Origin: a virus | DNA length: 23,963 bases | Virus record (IMG/VR): IMGVR_UViG_3300044712_000325 | Span: 1 to 23,963 of that record | Reading direction: 5' to 3' (one strand) | In this document: one piece after another, positions 3,077 through 22,574 of the stretch | Layout: each line of letters starts with the position of its first letter | Numbering within the stretch: position 1 is the first letter of the stretch | The notes under the pieces: model-generated | The model's input: the letters and a program-made list of their open reading frames with translations, nothing else | Database searches by the model: none | Told to the model about the DNA's origin: nothing | Made by a program: the position numbers and the translations under genes

Positions 3077-3781
3077 CTAAACTTGAATGTCTGTCACCAG
3101 ACCGTCAACAATAGTAATTGTTTGAATAGGACCAGTAGGGCCAGCATTGTAGCCATTACCAGGGCCGGTGTAACCGGTATAGCCAGTGGCACCAATAGGA
3201 CCAGTATAACCAGTCGCGCCAGTCGGTCCAGCGGGGCCAGTATAACCAGTCGCTCCAATAGGGCCGGTATAACCCGTGAAGCCAGTGGCACCAGTGGCAC
3301 CAATAGGACCAGTGTAACCAGTGGCGCCAGTGGCAGAAGCTGCTCCATCAGGACCGGTATAACCAGTCGGGCCGATAGGACCAGTGTAGCCGGTAGCTCC
3401 TGTTGCAGTTGCTGCTCCAGAAGGGCCAGTGTAGCCAGTAGGTCCGGTTGCTCCGATAGGGCCAGTGTAGCCGGTGGCACCCGTTACTCCAGGGCCAGTG
3501 TAGCCAGTGTAGCCAGTGTAACCAGTTGCACCGGCGGCGCCAGAACCGATAGTAGACCATGCAGGACTAGCGACGGTACCAGTCATCTGATAAACAGCTG
3601 AACCATCTAAGTCTTGAAGTAAACACTCAAGAGAAAAGATGTTAGCGTAAGTTGCGCCGGTGTAAGCGCTTGGATTACCCTCAATAGTACCAAAGGTAAT
3701 TAATTGGTAGGCGCTTGTATTGCTCGGTTGTTCCTGTTGTTGAATATCAACCAATGGAACAAGAGGATTTGATTTAGCCAT
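3077..3781 (-). CDS. Collagen-like (Gly-X-Y) fibre protein, 234 residues
   Basis: Residues 81-209 are an almost unbroken Gly-X-Y tract built from [15 protein letters not shown] and GPTG units, the hallmark of a collagen-type triple helix. The N-terminal 80 residues are a non-repetitive head domain, likely the trimerisation or particle-attachment part. A short tail follows the tract, ending in [17 protein letters not shown]. The very high Thr content at position Y, with almost no Lys or true Pro-Pro-Gly, fits bacterial and phage collagens, which do not need hydroxyproline. Such proteins form trimeric fibres on phage particles. A larger collagen-like gene lies at 11553-13913, and a glycosyltransferase gene lies in the same operon at 5723-7459. 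The start follows an AT-only block with no Shine-Dalgarno. Confidence 0.85.
3155..3541 (-). repeat. DNA repeat tract coding the first collagen-like region
   Basis: The tract consists of short repeated words such as CCAGTATAACCAGT and GGACCAGT, phased at multiples of 9 bases, the DNA form of Gly-X-Y. Near-identical words occur in the two tracts of the 786-residue fibre gene, so slippage or recombination between the genes is possible. Other frames stay open through the tract only because the repeat lacks stops. Confidence 0.8.
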
Positions 3782-11552: not shown

Positions 11553-13913
11553 TTAGCTTAAAGTTAAAAATCTTGTTGGGAATAAATAAAGTTGAACATA
11601 AAGGTCAATAGCAGCCGTAGTTTGAATAGCGTCAATATTTATTCTTACTCTATCGCCTAGTGCTAAACTCGTAGCGGTATCTGCGGTAAAAGGTGTAGGG
11701 CTTGAAGCAACGGTTGTAGCGAGAGTTGGCTTAGTGGTGAACATTGTAGTTGTCGCCTTATCAATATCAATCGTAGTGGAATTAGTTGTTCCAGCTGTTC
11801 CTACTTGTAAATCAGCTCCAATAACTCTCATTGGTTCAGTAGCGTAGTAAGCATTAGCTACATCATCAGCAACAGCTCCAATAGTTCCAGCAACAGCAAA
11901 TCTAGCAATATAAGGCTCTGCTCCTAAGATAACTGAATATTTAAAAGAGTTGGCATCTATTGAGGCACAAGTATCACCTATTATTGTTATAGTTGTGTTA
12001 GGCGAAGAATAAGTTGATGGTATAGAAACCATAGCGACTTTATCCGCAGCACCTTCTTGCCACCTAACTATCATTCCTTTTTTAAATATTGCAGTTAAAT
12101 CAGTGGCGACTGTTATCGTAGTGTTAGAAGCCCTAGTTCCAGTAACAGCAGTCCAAAGAGAAGCGCCGCCAGAAGCAGGTCCGGTATATCCAGTGTAACC
12201 GGTGGGGCCGGTAACAGTAGAAGCTGCGCCGGTGTATCCAGTCGGGCCGGTGGCGCCATTAGCTCCGTTTGGGCCTGTATAACCAGTAGGGCCTGTATAC
12301 CCAGTTGCTCCAGTTGGACCAACGGGACCAGTGTAACCAGTAGCTCCTTGAGGACCAGTATAACCCGTATAACCAGTGAAGTTACCTGCGCCAGTGTAAC
12401 CAGTATAACCAGTAAAACCTGTGGCTCCTAACGGACCAGTATACCCAGTATAACCAGTAGCGCCAGTTGCTCCGATTGGGCCGGTAAAACCGGTTGGTCC
12501 GGTATAACCAGTAGGGCCAATTGGGCCAGTATAGCCCGTATAGCCGGTAGCGCCAGTTGCTCCAGCAGGAGCAGAAACCGCAAAAGTGGTTTCAACATGA
12601 GACGCGAATTGCGTTCCTTGATATACAAAAGTCATTGTTTTTGTTGCTTGGTCAGTCGTCATTAATGGAGTAACAACAATTCTATCAGTTGTTAAGAGAG
12701 AATAAGTGGCGTCAGGAACAGCATATTGAATTATTATTTCCTGTGGAGCCGCTGACGAAGTAGAGCTTATGTCAGCAGATGCTTGAGTCGTAAATAATAT
12801 TGTTGCTGCTCCGGCATCAGTTATTTTTGAAACTTGAAATTTTAAAGTATTATTGCCTGCCGTGTTATTAACATAAGCCCAGGCACGAAAAGTCCACACT
12901 CCTCCAGGGATTGTAGTCTGGCCTGGCACCATAGAAACCGTAGCATAAGAATCTACTGGGGCACCGTTAGTATCTCCGGATTGAGCAACAACACTTTCAT
13001 TTACTTGAACTCCTCCGACAGGGACGCGAGTTAATTTCTCATAATCAGTTGTTATAGAAACAGAAGCTCCGGCAGTTTCATTAGTTAAAGCAGAGCTTCC
13101 AATAAGAGTTAAAGTGGAGGCTGCGACCGTTCTGATAGCCCAAGTTGCATTATTTCCTGGATTAGTAGCACCAGTGACTTTTATTTTCATTCCCGCTAAA
13201 AATCCGTCAGTTATAAAACTTCCGGCATCAGCCCTTGTTATCGTGTCTGGAGTAGAAGCGGTAACAAAAGCGATTGTATTATTATTTGTAATAGTCGGCC
13301 CCGTTATATCAGAAACAACATTATCAAAATATAAAGTTAATCCAGAAATATTTCCCGCGGGACCAGTATAACCAGTGTAACCAGTAAAGTTCCCTGGACC
13401 AGTATATCCAGTGTAGCCGGTTGGACCTGTGGCACCTTCTGAAGCAGGGGCGCCTTCTGGACCAGTGTAACCAGTATAACCGGTCGGACCAACATGGCCA
13501 GTATATCCAGTGAAACCAGTATAACCAGTGAAATTTCCTGGGCCTGTGAAACCAGTGTAACCAGTAGGGCCTGTTTCCCCTTGCGGTCCGGTGTAACCAG
13601 TATCGCCTATAGAACCAGTATAACCAGTAAAGCCAGTGTAGCCAGTATAACCAGTGGCGCCGGTAGATGATGCGACCCCTGCCGGGCCGGTATAACCAGT
13701 TGGACCAGTATAACCAGTCGGACCGATTGGACCAGGAGTATTGGTATTTACCCAATCGCTAGTACCGGAATCCCATGTCCAGACTGAGTCAGTCGAGCCC
13801 ACCATAGCAAAATATCCATCAGCGCCAACGGGGTAGGCAGCTGCCAAAGCGGCTGGCGTAGCAAACCAACCTAAGTTCATTGGGTCGCCAATTTTATTTG
13901 CTAAATATGCCAT
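11553..13913 (-). CDS. Large collagen-like fibre protein, 786 residues
   Basis: The N-terminal head (residues 1-58: [20 protein letters not shown], then [12 protein letters not shown]) is a short domain shared by many phage fibre and collagen-like proteins. Gly-X-Y tract 1 spans about 59-187 and tract 2 about 449-580, both dominated by GYTGP units. They flank a non-repetitive beta-rich domain (188-447) that probably forms a trimeric knob. The C-terminal 205 residues ([20 protein letters not shown], then [13 protein letters not shown]) are another beta-rich domain, likely the distal receptor or folding part. The layout head-collagen-knob-collagen-tip describes a long jointed fibre. It is the first of two collagen-like genes; the other is at 3077-3781. 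Interruptions by GNFTGYTG may be hinge points. The start has no Shine-Dalgarno. Confidence 0.85.
12174..12569 (-). repeat. Second collagen-coding repeat tract of the 786-residue fibre
   Basis: Nine-base-phased Gly-X-Y coding repeats with recurring words such as GGACCAGT and CCAGTATAACC. The unit variants match tract 1 and the smaller collagen-like gene, giving many short exact repeats over long distances and complicating assembly. Confidence 0.8.
13353..13739 (-). repeat. First collagen-coding repeat tract of the 786-residue fibre
   Basis: Same nine-base-phased coding repeats as at 12174-12569. The tract has two GNFTGYTG interruptions (around residues 127 and 175) and a short non-collagen insert, EGAPASEG, near residue 155. 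Confidence 0.8.
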
Positions 13914-14934: not shown

Positions 14935-15972
14935 CTAAACAGTGGCACCGTCGCCATCAGACCACATCCAACCACGAAGGTCAGAAGCACCCATAACAGC
15001 TAGGGAGTTGAAGTTTAATACCAAGTCCTGGTTACCTAGCAAGTCAATGACTGCCGGTTCAGCACGAGTTGGGAGAGCTTCAATATATAGGAATCCAAAA
15101 TCTTGAGTCATCATTTTGGAATCGAACATACCCCACATCAATCCATCCATTGCTAAGTTCTGATACGGAGATAGTTCTACTATCTTAAAGGTATCAGTAG
15201 CTGGAGCATTGTTGAAGACATTAGTTTGTTGAGGAGCTAAGCCCTTATCAATTGTACCCTTGATTGTCTTGGCAAATTGAGCAGCGGTTGAACCTCTGCG
15301 AACTACTAATGTGTCTAAATCAGAGATAAGCGGATTACCACGTCCGTCCTTTTTCAAGGAATGTAATCTGCGTGCAGCTAATAAAGATGAATAAGTGAAT
15401 TGAGGTGAGTTTGTAGCACCATCAACAATAACATTAGACCAGGCAGCACCGCCGTCTTCACGAGGGTGAGCTTGTGACCAATATTCAACGGCATCGGCAC
15501 CAATAGTTGCCACTGGAGTTGAAGTACCAACCGCATTGATTGGAGTCCAAGTGAATGAAGTGTTGAATCCTTGTGCTAACAAAGATTGAGCCAAATAATT
15601 TTTTGCATGCTCAATAGCATTCTTTCCTTCAATAACTTTTGATTTAACAGAGCCCTTAATTTTAGCAGCTGCTGATTCGAATAAAAAGAAATTAGTTTGG
15701 AAAGTCAAACGTACTTTTTTTGTGAAGTGCATTTGAACGTAGTTTTTTGAATAACCTTGAATAGGAGCATCAGATGCGCCAATTCCACCATCCGGGATTA
15801 TTTCAGCCATACCAAGGCCAGTGACACCAACGTCAGTGTAAATTCTTTCGTTGTTGTCTACCTTATACATGAAGTCTAAATATTCAGGCTTCACAGTAGG
15901 AGAGACCTTCGGAGCAACATGCTTTAACACATTGTTCACGATAACTGCATAATCATTTATTGTACCGACCAT
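14935..15972 (-). CDS. Major capsid protein (HK97-fold candidate), 345 residues
   Basis: This is the best candidate for the shell protein. It follows the scaffold and a small decoration-like protein, has the usual length of 300-400 residues, and mixes strands and helices as HK97-fold proteins do. Residues 1-60 suit an N-arm (MVGTINDYAVIVNNVLKHVA). A possible E-loop with VRLTFQTNFFLFESAAAKIK follows, then a spine-helix segment (AIEHAKNYLAQSLL). The second half has DTLVVRRGSTAAQFAKTIKG, SPYQNLAMDGLMWGMFDSKM and AVIDLLGNQDLVLNF, resembling P- and A-domain patterns. It lacks a Lys-rich N-terminal cleaved segment, consistent with a separate scaffold gene. The start follows an AT-rich leader with CATATG and no clear Shine-Dalgarno. 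The GC hairpin after it may raise its mRNA level. Confidence 0.8.
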   Translation of the reverse strand: MVGTINDYAVIVNNVLKHVAPKVSPTVKPEYLDFMYKVDNNERIYTDVGVTGLGMAEIIPDGGIGASDAPIQGYSKNYVQMHFTKKVRLTFQTNFFLFESAAAKIKGSVKSKVIEGKNAIEHAKNYLAQSLLAQGFNTSFTWTPINAVGTSTPVATIGADAVEYWSQAHPREDGGAAWSNVIVDGATNSPQFTYSSLLAARRLHSLKKDGRGNPLISDLDTLVVRRGSTAAQFAKTIKGTIDKGLAPQQTNVFNNAPATDTFKIVELSPYQNLAMDGLMWGMFDSKMMTQDFGFLYIEALPTRAEPAVIDLLGNQDLVLNFNSLAVMGASDLRGWMWSDGDGATV

Positions 15973-15994
15973 ATGTTTGTTTTTTAAAAATTAA

Positions 15995-16411
15995 TTAAAC
16001 AGTTATGAACTTGCCGATAATAAGTTTATCAGTAGAGGCTCCGTACGGTTCGACTTGACGTACGACACCAACAGCACTCGTAGTATGAGTATTGTTGACG
16101 ATTGACGAACTTGCACCAAGAATCATGTCCTGACCGTTGTCAGTAGCCAAGGTATCATTGGTGGTTGGGAAGATAAAAGTATCTTCATCTGATGGAACAA
16201 TATAAGAAACACGAGTCTTAGCATCAGCAGCGGCAATAGTTTCGTTGCAAACACCCAAAATAGTAGCTCTAGTTGAACTACTTGTGGCTGCTACAGCTAA
16301 ACCGGCTGTTAAATCTAGGATTTCTCCTAAGGTTGTAACAGTGCTAGCCCCTTTGTTGGCTTCTGCTAATTGGCGTGTATTCTTAATGGTTGCCTGTTTA
16401 ATTACACCCAT
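15995..16411 (-). CDS. Head decoration-like protein, 138 residues
   Basis: The protein starts MGVIKQATIKNTRQLAE, then has an Ala/Thr/Ser-rich body (GEILDLTAGLAVAATSSSTR, VSYIVPSDEDTFIFPTTND) and ends DKLIIGKFITV. The pattern of beta strands, low charge and place between scaffold and major capsid gene match phage head-decoration proteins, which bind the expanded shell and stabilise it. No known signature is certain. It is separated from the scaffold stop by 22 AT-only bases and from the capsid start by a similar block. Confidence 0.65.
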   Translation of the reverse strand: MGVIKQATIKNTRQLAEANKGASTVTTLGEILDLTAGLAVAATSSSTRATILGVCNETIAAADAKTRVSYIVPSDEDTFIFPTTNDTLATDNGQDMILGASSSIVNNTHTTSAVGVVRQVEPYGASTDKLIIGKFITV

Positions 16412-16433: not shown

Positions 16434-17342
16434 TTAATCCGTTAGGAGTTCGATGGCTTTTTCTTCTGATACCCCGGTCGCTACAATCTCATCGATTGAT
16501 TTACGCATCTCCGGAGAGAAGTCGGTCTTGGCAATGCTTCCACCAGGGAACTGCATCGCATTAACTTTTTCTTGAACATTTGCACCTTTGAGTACTCTTT
16601 CCTGAATAGTCTCAGATGGCTTAAACATATTTTCACGCGCGAGCTCTAAAACTGTCATTAATTCCTTTCCACTCTTGTTTTGCCAATTGTAGTTGGAGTC
16701 AACGAAGTCAAAGAAAACTTCGCGGGTGTCATCATCTTTAAGTTCAGCATGTCTATCAACAAATTTATCTAAGGTATTTTTAACGTCTGTGGCTAAACGC
16801 TCTTGTTGGATAATCGCTTCGATATCCTCCTTGGTCGCGCCACCCAGTTGTTTTAAACGTTCTTTATCAGCAGTCAAAGTCTCATCTTCTGGTTCTAACG
16901 GTTTTTCTGGAACCTCCTCGCTCTTTTGATTAAGCGACTTGGTAAATCTATCAGTTCCATTAAGAGTTTTAAGATTGCTCTTAGCCGCCTTAATTTCTTC
17001 TGATATTTCTTGACGCTGTTCATCGGTTTTAGCAAGTTTTCTTCGTTTGACTAGGTCGAGGAGCTCAATTCGCTTCTCATATGACTCGTCAGACTCAAAC
17101 TTCCCTTTGTTAGGAACACGAAATTCGTATCCTTCCGATTTCTTTTCGTCAGTTGGAGGGGTGCTGGGTTCCTCCGGCTTCTTTGCCTCTGGAATCTCTT
17201 CCTTTGGCTCTTCGCCCTTGGCTTCCTCTTTTGGAGTAAGCGCTTTTCCAGCTTGGACTGAGTTTATTGACTCTTCGAGCTCTTTATCGAGCTGTGATTC
17301 GTCAATATCTCCTTCCACTTTTACTTCTGTATTATTATCCAT
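16434..17342 (-). CDS. Scaffolding protein candidate, 302 residues
   Basis: The product is very acidic and Glu/Lys/Pro-rich for its first 75 residues (KEEAKGEEPKEEIPEAKKPE), then strongly helical (EKRIELLDLVKRRKLAKTDE, TADKERLKQLGGATKEDIEA). The C-terminus has a compact helical domain (MRKSIDEIVATGVSEEKAIE). Length and composition match phage scaffolds (P22 gp8 has 303 residues), and it sits between portal-linked genes and the capsid gene. Known role: guides coat assembly into procapsids and then leaves. A strong promoter (17389-17417) and a pseudoknot-like element (17351-17376) lie in its leader, with GGA spaced 7 bases from the ATG. P22 scaffold is known to control its own synthesis after transcription, which makes the leader structure relevant. 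Family identity is not proven by a motif. Confidence 0.75.
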   Translation of the reverse strand: MDNNTEVKVEGDIDESQLDKELEESINSVQAGKALTPKEEAKGEEPKEEIPEAKKPEEPSTPPTDEKKSEGYEFRVPNKGKFESDESYEKRIELLDLVKRRKLAKTDEQRQEISEEIKAAKSNLKTLNGTDRFTKSLNQKSEEVPEKPLEPEDETLTADKERLKQLGGATKEDIEAIIQQERLATDVKNTLDKFVDRHAELKDDDTREVFFDFVDSNYNWQNKSGKELMTVLELARENMFKPSETIQERVLKGANVQEKVNAMQFPGGSIAKTDFSPEMRKSIDEIVATGVSEEKAIELLTD

Positions 17343-17350
17343 ATGATTAT

Positions 17351-17380
17351 CCGCTCGTATCGTGAACGGTGACGATGGTT
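17351..17380 (-). promoter_or_regulatory. 5'UTR pseudoknot-like element, copy A (before scaffold)
   Basis: On the minus-strand RNA, AUCGU (17376-17372) can pair with ACGAU (17363-17359), and CCGUUC (17369-17364) with GAGCGG (17356-17351). These interleave as an H-type pseudoknot with a CA linker, no middle loop and an AC linker. The 3' strand of the second stem ends in the GG of the Shine-Dalgarno-like GGA. The 25 bases 17356-17380 match copy B at 22 positions. The element starts about 2 bases after the predicted transcription start. Confidence 0.65.
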
Positions 17381-17388
17381 ATAATTTA

Positions 17389-17417
17389 ATTATATCATTT
17401 TTAGGAGATAAAGGCAA
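17389..17417 (-). promoter_or_regulatory. Sigma70-type promoter for the scaffold/capsid module
   Basis: Minus-strand -35 TTGCCT (17412-17417), a 17-base spacer ending in TGA, and -10 TATAAT (17389-17394). The expected start is near 17382, giving a leader of about 40 bases that contains pseudoknot-like copy A. The site lies wholly between the preceding stop and the scaffold start. Confidence 0.75.
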
Positions 17418-17418
17418 A

Positions 17419-17880
17419 CTATCTGTCATTATATTTGACAAATTTTTTGATTTTCTCCAACTTCTGCCTCAATGTGTCAAGATTGACCGACCCTTCAGTT
17501 AAAAAGGATATGGCATGCTTTTGGAAATCCCCGTCCATAGAATCATGTTCTTCTCCGACGGAGTCAGAATACTTTAAAGGAATGATTATCAAATAAACCT
17601 CTTTATCATTCTGTTTGTAAAAAAGAATATTGTCAGTTGGTTTAAACACCTTGTTAAACACCCCCAACAAATCTTCTCGTTCCACTGGTTTTCCACAGGT
17701 TCCTTCGAACCCGGACGGGATTATCCCTTTAAAGAAATAATCATCAGTTTTCACTTCTTGACCGGAAGAGTTCTTTAAGATTAAACTCTTCACTTTTACC
17801 TCGGCTTTCTTAGGAGCGGCCGCCTTTTTTACAACAACCACATCCTTTGTTTCCTCTACCTTTTTTTCAATGTTTTCCAT
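17419..17880 (-). CDS. Unknown protein before the scaffold, Lys/Ala-rich N-tail, 153 residues
   Basis: The first 33 residues are Lys, Val and Ala-rich (VVVVKKAAAPKKAEVKVK), like a flexible basic tail. A folded domain of mixed strands and helices follows (GQEVKTDDYFFKGIIPSGFE, DNILFYKQNDKEVYLIIIPL), and a helical end (NLDTLRQKLEKIKKFVKYND). No family is recognised. Its leader has the second copy of the pseudoknot-like element and a good AGGA at 6 bases from the ATG, so it shares a control signal with the scaffold gene. That suggests a product made in fixed proportion to the scaffold, for instance a head-assembly partner. Confidence 0.6.
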   Translation of the reverse strand: MENIEKKVEETKDVVVVKKAAAPKKAEVKVKSLILKNSSGQEVKTDDYFFKGIIPSGFEGTCGKPVEREDLLGVFNKVFKPTDNILFYKQNDKEVYLIIIPLKYSDSVGEEHDSMDGDFQKHAISFLTEGSVNLDTLRQKLEKIKKFVKYNDR

Positions 17881-17887
17881 ATGTTTT

Positions 17888-17918
17888 CCTAGCCGTATCG
17901 TGGCTGGTGACGATGGTT
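17888..17918 (-). promoter_or_regulatory. 5'UTR pseudoknot-like element, copy B
   Basis: On the minus-strand RNA, AUCGU (17914-17910) can pair with ACGAU (17901-17897), and AGCC (17905-17902) with GGCU (17894-17891). Two further C-G pairs form across a bulged A at 17890, using the GG of the AGGA ribosome site. Linkers CA and AC are the same as in copy A. Compared with copy A, all three changed bases on one side of the stem are matched by changes on the other side. Confidence 0.65.
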
Positions 17919-17925
17919 AAATAAA

Positions 17926-20843: not shown

Positions 20844-22574
20844 TTAATGAGGAATTTGTCCAGTTTCTTCTCCGAACATCGCTCGAATGTGAGAAAATCC
20901 ATCTCCCGCGCTCGAATCGTCGACATAAGTACCCTGTTCTTGAAGAATTGCGTAACCAATAGACGCACTCATTATCACATCATCGTGTTTTTTATCCATC
21001 GCTTCCGGTTTTCCTTTAATATTTCGTACGAAAGTAAACATTTCATCCAATAACTGAGCTGGAAAACCCTTGTCCTTCCTAAAAAATACAGCCTTAAGCG
21101 CCGCTAAAGCAAATGGCCGCGTCGCTGACGTTGTCTTCCACCCAAAAAACTTAGTTACCTTTTGAGTAATATCATCAAAAACCTTCCGGTAGTAAAGATT
21201 AATGTAGCCCATCTTCTCCAGCGCGTCGTTAACCCAAAGTCCATCTTTATTAACCTCTATTCCAAGCAGCGCAAAATTATAGTACTTCCCCAGCTTGTAA
21301 GCCTCGACTGCAAGCTCGTCTGGAGCCACATGGGAGCGGTACAGCGCATCGCACTCCTCCGTCTTCTGATTAATCACATATAAAACCTGAGCGTCTCCAT
21401 GAGCCAATCCCTCAGCGGTATCTCCACCTATAATATATTTAACCCCGACCTCAGGCGCCTTAAAAACCTCGAGCGAACCGGAGGACACTTGATTAAAAAC
21501 AACGTTCCCTTTATCGTCATTTCCCAGCTCTCCACGGACCCCTTTCTCAGCACCTTGAAGAAGCGTAGCCACCTTAGCGGTTGGGAAATATGTCTGGCCA
21601 GTAGATAAAAAGGCTTCCTCCTGAGTAGTCGGATATTCCTGCATCAGCGAATGAATAGCATCCGGAGAGTTCTTACCACCGAACTGCAGCCATTTCATAT
21701 AATAATAAGTAATCTCCTTGTCAGTCAGATTGTGCTCCTGCTTGTAACTCTCCCAGTCAATCTCACAGACGTCCATATCCTTTGTAGGAATCGGCTCGTA
21801 AATCTTCTTCATTTCCATATCATCGTACTGCCAGTTATAGAAATGCGGCAGAAACTGTACCTGTGATAACTGAGGACTTATTTTATCCCGTGATACCCAG
21901 TTCTGTTGGAATATTTCGTAAAACCTCCCGGCCATACCTTCCGCGGTCGACTCAATAAAAATAAACCCGTCGAACGGTACCGTCGGGAATGTTCCTCTTT
22001 CAACTTCCTCCGCCCGCTTAGGAAAAGCCACGCACATCTTAGCAAACTCCGATATGTGCACATAATGATAAGTACCCGACCGACCGGACACTGACACTGC
22101 TAGCGAGGAAGTGGAACCCTGCTCAGGTCCGTAATCAATAACCACCTGCACCTTACGAGCGGAGCGGTGGTTAATCTTAAAAAAGGCGTCCTTTACATCC
22201 TCAGCCATGTTACGCAGAGCGAACTCAATCTTCTTATCAAAAATCTCCGTCGCGTCCTGTACCTTATGGGCAATAATAATACCCTCTCTGTTCGGATTAA
22301 ATAGAATACTGTCGAGAATAAAAATATCAATGAAAGTCGTGAAACCAAGCTGTCTACTTTTTAGGATTACATGCCGGTGGTACGGGTGCGGAATATTCAA
22401 ATAAGTCTGGTAAAAATGAGCCTGCGCCCTATTCATTTTAAACACCTGCTTATCCCCATCCTTACTAATAATCCAGTAAAGGTTATTTAAGCGCCACTCC
22501 TGGTCCTTTATCAGGTCCGGATTATTAGTAAGCAGCTCAACAATTTTCTCGTTATGAACCTTCTGATTATCCAT
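20844..22574 (-). CDS. terL: Terminase large subunit (TerL), ATPase and nuclease
   Basis: The 576-residue protein has both TerL domains. The ATPase motor has the Walker A variant KSRQLGFTT (72-80), a Walker B-like YVHISE (171-176) and a coupling motif FIESTAEG (206-213). The RNase-H-like nuclease has IIGGDTAEG (381-389, metal ligand Asp385), LLGIEVNKDG (437-446, Glu440) and KHDDVIMSASIGYA (529-542, Asp531/Asp532). Known role: docks on the portal, pumps DNA into the procapsid with ATP, and cuts the concatemer. It overlaps the upstream 71-residue gene by 8 bases and is part of the first late transcript. I cannot tell pac-type from cos-type cutting from the sequence. Confidence 0.95.
   Translation of the reverse strand: MDNQKVHNEKIVELLTNNPDLIKDQEWRLNNLYWIISKDGDKQVFKMNRAQAHFYQTYLNIPHPYHRHVILKSRQLGFTTFIDIFILDSILFNPNREGIIIAHKVQDATEIFDKKIEFALRNMAEDVKDAFFKINHRSARKVQVVIDYGPEQGSTSSLAVSVSGRSGTYHYVHISEFAKMCVAFPKRAEEVERGTFPTVPFDGFIFIESTAEGMAGRFYEIFQQNWVSRDKISPQLSQVQFLPHFYNWQYDDMEMKKIYEPIPTKDMDVCEIDWESYKQEHNLTDKEITYYYMKWLQFGGKNSPDAIHSLMQEYPTTQEEAFLSTGQTYFPTAKVATLLQGAEKGVRGELGNDDKGNVVFNQVSSGSLEVFKAPEVGVKYIIGGDTAEGLAHGDAQVLYVINQKTEECDALYRSHVAPDELAVEAYKLGKYYNFALLGIEVNKDGLWVNDALEKMGYINLYYRKVFDDITQKVTKFFGWKTTSATRPFALAALKAVFFRKDKGFPAQLLDEMFTFVRNIKGKPEAMDKKHDDVIMSASIGYAILQEQGTYVDDSSAGDGFSHIRAMFGEETGQIPH

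Follow-up and report, generated by a model that had tools for sequence, protein, structure and literature searches.

Genomic context of the two leaders

The window analysed here (the whole stretch of 23,963 bases, an IMG/VR record) carries on its minus strand genes in the order terminase, 704 aa, 78 aa, 168 aa (up168), 153 aa (up153), 302 aa, 138 aa and 345 aa. The terminase gene was named through matches to PHROG terminases, and the large subunit it encodes (window 20844-22574) is ~33% identical to those of known phages, mostly Vibrio phage terminases. Apart from the terminase, none of these proteins received a name from the family libraries. The labels portal, scaffold and coat are therefore positional, the 704-aa protein being the presumed portal and the 345-aa protein the presumed major coat. 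The 302-aa protein found no match in family databases; its acidic composition, together with a gene position upstream of the presumed coat gene, suggests that it is scaffold-like. In up153 a conserved core of 120 residues carries a tail that varies and is often rich in lysine. The 153-aa protein has only weak, scattered matches in PHROG and nothing convincing among PDB sequences; a first AF2 model of it was poor, and a model of the core (pLDDT 84.5) gave no fold match in PDB or BFVD, an absence that carries no proof. A search for the host with the coat and scaffold proteins against 84,980 bacterial and archaeal genomes returned no match, and neither did a search of INPHARED phages with the coat protein.

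The first-pass annotation had reported two 25-base elements on the minus strand, each 5' of a gene start, and both are found exactly where and as it described them (Table 1). The pairs of its variable stem are likewise present in both copies, with one bulged A in copy B, and the leaders do overlie the ribosome-binding sites of their genes, the scaffold-like one and its neighbour, the GG falling within the hairpin that we call S2. The sequence ATCGTCACCNNNCACGATACG is present exactly twice in the window, where shuffles expect 0 occurrences even at 3 mismatches, and no third copy of the element was found there. The fold energy of either copy is not significantly better than that of shuffled sequences (z -0.7 to -1.6), and the case for structure therefore rests on homologues.

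Table 1. Features of the two leaders and their genes in the window; P1, S1 and S2 denote pairings, L1 and L3 loops.
Feature	Position	Strand	Evidence
Element A (class 1), leader of 302-aa scaffold-like gene	17337..17381	-	CM match 65.8 bits, E 1.2e-13 (own sequence in seed); homologues
Element A P1: 5' strand CCAU with AUGG (start codon + G)	17375..17378 with 17342-17339	-	MFE fold
Element A S1 pseudoknot stem: CGU with ACG; L1 CA	17374-17372 with 17363-17361; L1 17371-17370	-	S1 covariation in homologues
Element A S2 hairpin: CCGUUC/GAGCGG; L3 AUAC	17369-17364/17356-17351; L3 17360-17357	-	covariation
Element A Shine-Dalgarno-like GGA, GG within S2	17350..17352	-	sequence
Element B (class 1), leader of 153-aa gene	17875..17919	-	CM match 63.9 bits, E 3.4e-13 (own sequence in seed)
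Element B P1: CCAU with AUGG	17916-17913 with 17880-17877	-	MFE fold; leader comparison
Element B S1: CGU with ACG	17912-17910 with 17901-17899	-	as element A
Element B S2: CCAGCC/GGCU(A)GG, bulged A; L3 AUAC	17907-17902/17894-17888; L3 17898-17895	-	fold and covariation
Sigma-70-like promoter of scaffold gene: TTGCCT, 17 nt, TATAAT	17389..17417 (TTGCCT 17417-17412, TATAAT 17394-17389)	-	10/12 matches
302-aa scaffold-like protein gene	16434..17342	-	ORF, ATG 17342; upstream of presumed coat gene; pI 4.7
153-aa protein gene (up153)	17419..17880	-	ORF, ATG 17880; variable N-terminal tail and conserved ~120-aa core

Distribution among relatives

Searches of IMG/VR yielded 72 loci with the scaffold protein and 80 with the coat protein, while the DNA pattern of the element yielded 35 contigs and a wider pattern 80 contigs. 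Two of these 80 (L350 and L367) do not have the phage genes and appear to be chance matches; the pattern contigs otherwise carry those genes, which makes the element a property of one phage clade. With the start codons of the two genes as anchors, the full set of loci gave 71 distinct scaffold and 77 distinct up153 leaders, and these divide into 123 leaders of class 1, the form present in the window (71 scaffold, 52 up153), and 25 of class 2, a different sequence in the same layout that stands before up153 in more divergent relatives. The element family thus precedes the same two genes in ~70 distinct IMG/VR relatives. In nearly all parsed scaffold leaders the element can still be recognised, even where protein identity falls to 48%, the leaders of L149, L170 and L172 being the most altered. 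Long relatives of 40-46 kb, whose completeness is unstated in the record, have two sites per genome and none elsewhere, combining either class 1 with class 1 or class 1 with class 2.

The first-pass annotation knew of no described element with this sequence, and none came to light in Rfam, INPHARED or PLSDB: in Rfam release 15 no family scored above its gathering threshold and relaxed thresholds gave sub-threshold chance matches only, and a scan of INPHARED phages and PLSDB plasmids for the element gave no match. The elements are almost certainly a real and previously undescribed control element that sets the amounts of the two proteins made.

Hairpin and pseudoknot in class 1

The class-1 consensus reads UAACCAUCG-NNN-CCNNNC-ACGAUAC-GNNN(n)GGA-N4-8-AUAUGG. 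S2 is a 6-bp hairpin (CCNNNC/GNNNGG), often with one bulge on its 3' side, that ends 7-11 nt before the AUG. Compensatory change had been claimed from the two copies in the window, and the homologues bear it out upstream of head genes in ~70 relatives: class-1 leaders show no fewer than 19 distinct inner stems of S2 with every position paired, and when 32 representatives were aligned with MAFFT, blind to structure, 54 cells proved to be changed on both sides against 13.9 when shuffled and at most 20 in slid registers (P1 and S1 are included in this count, nearly all of which is S2). RNAalifold recovers S2 unaided, and both U-G pairs and bulges are tolerated within it.

The pseudoknot proposed in the first-pass annotation is supported by covariation of S1, but in another register, of ~3 bp (CGU/ACG) with the 4-nt loop AUAC, and not as a 5-bp stem crossed by a 2-nt linker. 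The AUCGU/ACGAU stem, there called invariant, varies at its fifth pair, which is the third pair of S1 and is unformed in 13 of the 32 representatives, AUCGG with ACG being a common combination. One-sided changes, which had been named as evidence against the fold, do occur, mainly at this fifth pair, and the worry over the tight linker disappears, by pair count, once ~3 bp of S1 are crossed by a loop of 3-4 nt. Two further observations led us to reject the 5-bp stem: the AU of the loop persists in class 2 opposite a 5' partner other than AU (AACCU..AGGAUA), and the loop turns to UU while its 5' partner is still AU (CGUUA loops with AUCG).

Changes on both sides of S1 are seen within class 1, as CGC/GCG in L150 and L165 and as CCC/GGG in the scaffold leader of L170. 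The C-G and G-C pairs otherwise show almost no variation, and G-A is frequent at the third position, so that the pseudoknot could be weak in class 1. The L170 scaffold leader (L170:2455-2505) is a natural hybrid, with a class-1 frame (ACCAU/AUGG, GGA), a class-2-type S1 and the loop ACAA; the up153 leader of the same genome likewise has the loop ACA.

Start-codon pairing and promoter

Three features go beyond the first-pass annotation, namely the pairing of CCAU with AUGG (P1), a promoter at the 5' edge of the element, and a further class of element. In the MFE fold of each window copy the 5'-edge CCAU is paired with the start AUGG, and a complement of the start region stands at the 5' edge in 120 of the 123 class-1 leaders, as against 1 of the 25 class-2 and 11 of 145 control leaders. 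The start itself follows the class: up153 genes begin with ATGG in 52/52 cases with class 1 and in 13/25 with class 2 (Fisher 1.4e-7), all of these being counts of related sequences that are not independent and that overstate the number of events. Three leaders (L068, L168 and L072), which may represent one event, start with ATGAG and match it with the 5' strand CUCA. The predicted probability that the AUG is unpaired is 0.11-0.15 in class 1 and 0.40-0.68 in up168, coat and class-2 leaders, class 2 (0.68) not hiding its AUG. In class 1, by these predicted folds, the structure is one that covers the Shine-Dalgarno site, the start codon or both; the 5' CCAU adjoins S1, and P1 and S1 may form together or in turn. 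The leaders of the presumed coat gene (window 15972-16000) and of its relatives are AT-rich and unstructured, and nearly all are without a Shine-Dalgarno-like site, so that initiation on the coat gene must differ from that on the two element-bearing genes.

A sigma-70-like promoter ends 7 nt ahead of element A in the window. The pattern TTGNNN-N16-19-TANNNT lies upstream of 70 of the 71 scaffold leaders and is found in at most 4 of the 72-73 coat or up168 leaders and in 1 of the 77 up153 leaders. Its spacer is 17 in 60/70, and the distance from the -10 to the ACC of the element is most often 7 nt (35/70). By the usual spacing of promoters the scaffold mRNA should begin at the element, with the predicted 5' end AACCAUCG, and therefore the whole 5'UTR would be operator. 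The up153 leaders are without that promoter, which places element B inside a longer transcript.

A second class with the same layout

Examples of class 2 are GAUCCC-CUG-GUGAC-GGGAUA-GUCAC in L165 and AUCCU-UUA-ACGGU-AGGAUA-ACCGU in L115; members lack P1 and have no Shine-Dalgarno site near the AUG. Their rows were parsed by hand, in a manner that leans toward structure, and in these rows S2 covaries with 42 double-changed cells against 14.4 when shuffled. The first three letters of the loop (AGG, GGG or CGG) are complemented upstream as S1, CCN/NGG, in 23 of 25 leaders, as compared with 15.4 when loops are permuted (p 5e-5).

Both classes can be read as one pseudoknot, in which S1 would have three pairs (CGN/NCG or CCN/NGG) and S2 five to six, the common layout having 1-4 nt in L1 and AUA(C/A) as L3. 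In silico, the short S1 pseudoknot is weaker in class 1 than in class 2, where it is strong. Covariation of S2 and S1 supports an H-type pseudoknot in the leader.

A possible single regulator for two sites

Between the two genes of one genome the element cores agree at 0.86, against 0.75 in comparison with the nearest relatives; the within-genome likeness is the higher in 37 of 46 genomes, against 9 in which the reverse holds. On the coat tree, some four exchanges between class 1 and class 2 have taken place at up153, two of them forced by starred branches. A single trans-acting factor fits these data, because the classes interchange at one site and the copies are alike within a genome. Gene conversion between the 45-bp repeats is another process that could cause the within-genome likeness. 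In L053 and in L114, the scaffold and up153 leaders of each genome share one derived element with the loop CACGTTA, unlike most others, a concerted change at two sites 500-600 bases apart.

We regard it as on balance probable that both elements act in cis as RNA operators of translation, read by a late phage protein, that hold down the scaffold and its partner to match capsid assembly. Each element would fold as a short H-type pseudoknot consisting of the hairpin S2, a pairing (S1) of the S2 loop with the 5' flank, and the third loop, AUA(C), closed in class 1 by P1 between the 5'-terminal CCAU and AUGG, so that in the modelled resting RNA the Shine-Dalgarno-like GG and the AUG are buried. Such a closed fold would limit access of the 30S subunit, and the scaffold-gene promoter, judged by its pattern, would put the 5' end of the RNA at the element. 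One late protein may recognise S1 and the AUA loop on an S2 of free sequence at both genes, and its accumulation, by stabilising (or opening) the fold, would then hold translation down, although the conserved structure could alternatively serve activation or mRNA stability. By analogy, the candidate regulator is the scaffold-like protein or the 153-aa protein, most plausibly acting autogenously; neither is preferred, since the model of the up153 core gives no informative fold match. A bolder and tentative proposal, which we put forward as possible and no more probable than that, is that a single capsid-assembly protein reads both of the interchangeable, sequence-unrelated pseudoknot classes through their common S1 and AUA loop, thereby tying how much scaffold and partner is translated directly to the amount of protein still unassembled, throughout a whole clade of uncultured phages.

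A self-contained 5' element that needs no trans-acting factor, shielding the mRNA from decay and fixing a structure-limited (or temperature-dependent) rate of translation, would account for an element that starts at the predicted scaffold transcription start and has its Shine-Dalgarno site and AUG predicted as paired. We consider it rather unlikely, given that mere occlusion requires neither the conserved loop ACGAUAC nor S1, nor an AUA in two unrelated sequence classes, that element B lies inside a longer transcript and has no promoter of its own, and that the copies of one genome stay alike. That S2 and P1 are the only pairings, the loop and 5' letters being kept for contact with protein and the S1 pseudoknot not forming, agrees with the near invariance of S1 in class 1 and the frequent failure of its third pair; the covariation of S1 in class 2 and the changes on both S1 sides in L150, L165 and L170 argue otherwise, and leave this a clearly unlikely account. 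E. coli S15 uses a pseudoknot operator (rpsO; PMC3014915), and something from the host, for instance a ribosomal protein or the 30S subunit, might similarly read the element, or the element might be an initiation enhancer in a host that uses few Shine-Dalgarno sites, where the unstructured coat leaders would mark out the two elements as special initiation sites; the restriction of the element to one phage clade and to only two phage genes, with no match to the ribosomal protein leaders of Rfam, makes such a host reader very unlikely. A DNA operator for a phage transcription factor, suggested by ATCGT-N8-ACGAT as an inverted repeat found on both strands, was considered and rejected as highly improbable, since U-G pairs and bulges are tolerated and stem letters vary freely with pairing kept, as expected of an element that acts as RNA, and the element lies downstream of the promoter in fixed orientation and at a fixed distance from the AUG.

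Relation to known operators

The system closest in kind to translational operators of the type we favour is the gene 32 pseudoknot; the principle is common, the layout, target genes and sequence are not. In T4-like phages this pseudoknot, ~40-67 nt upstream, nucleates cooperative binding of gp32 on UUAAA repeats and excludes the Shine-Dalgarno site and AUG (PMC535899, PMC3014915). Like the gene 32 operator of T4, T2 and RB69, through which gp32 regulates itself, the element sets an H-type pseudoknot in the leader of a phage mRNA, before a gene that it probably controls. It differs in having the Shine-Dalgarno-like GG and the AUG inside the fold, in being present in two copies and at head genes, and in abutting the AUG with no long unstructured tract of UUAAA repeats to carry the ribosome-binding site; nor is a single-strand DNA-binding protein controlled, only the scaffold-like and 153-aa genes following the element.

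The S15 operator is a pseudoknot over the ribosome-binding site that confers autogenous translational control, and it resembles the present element in that position but belongs to a cellular gene and has another sequence and layout. The P22 scaffolding protein regulates its own synthesis post-transcriptionally, and here too free scaffold would be expected to lower expression of a scaffold gene; the open literature searched describes no comparable RNA site for P22 scaffold autoregulation, and no sequence relation was found between the P22 scaffold protein and the proteins considered here. The coat operator of MS2 is a hairpin bound by a phage protein near the start site. It and the hairpin operator of T4 gene 43, also bound by a phage protein (PMC3014915), share with our elements a hairpin with conserved loop letters near a start site, but neither contains a pseudoknot or pairs its start codon in this way.

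If the operator reading is true, these leaders are a second, independent phage case, located in head-assembly genes and represented by ~70 natural variants, and they would open a molecular route to the balance that phages strike between scaffold and coat, a problem posed by P22 decades ago. The presence of two element classes at the same gene amounts to a natural experiment on what the regulator reads.

Elsewhere in the window, long arrays with a 9-base period (CCAGTNNNN type) occur within genes at 3125-3550, 12181-12570 and 13360-13690, and their predicted products would be repeats of short period resembling the Gly-X-Y of collagen.
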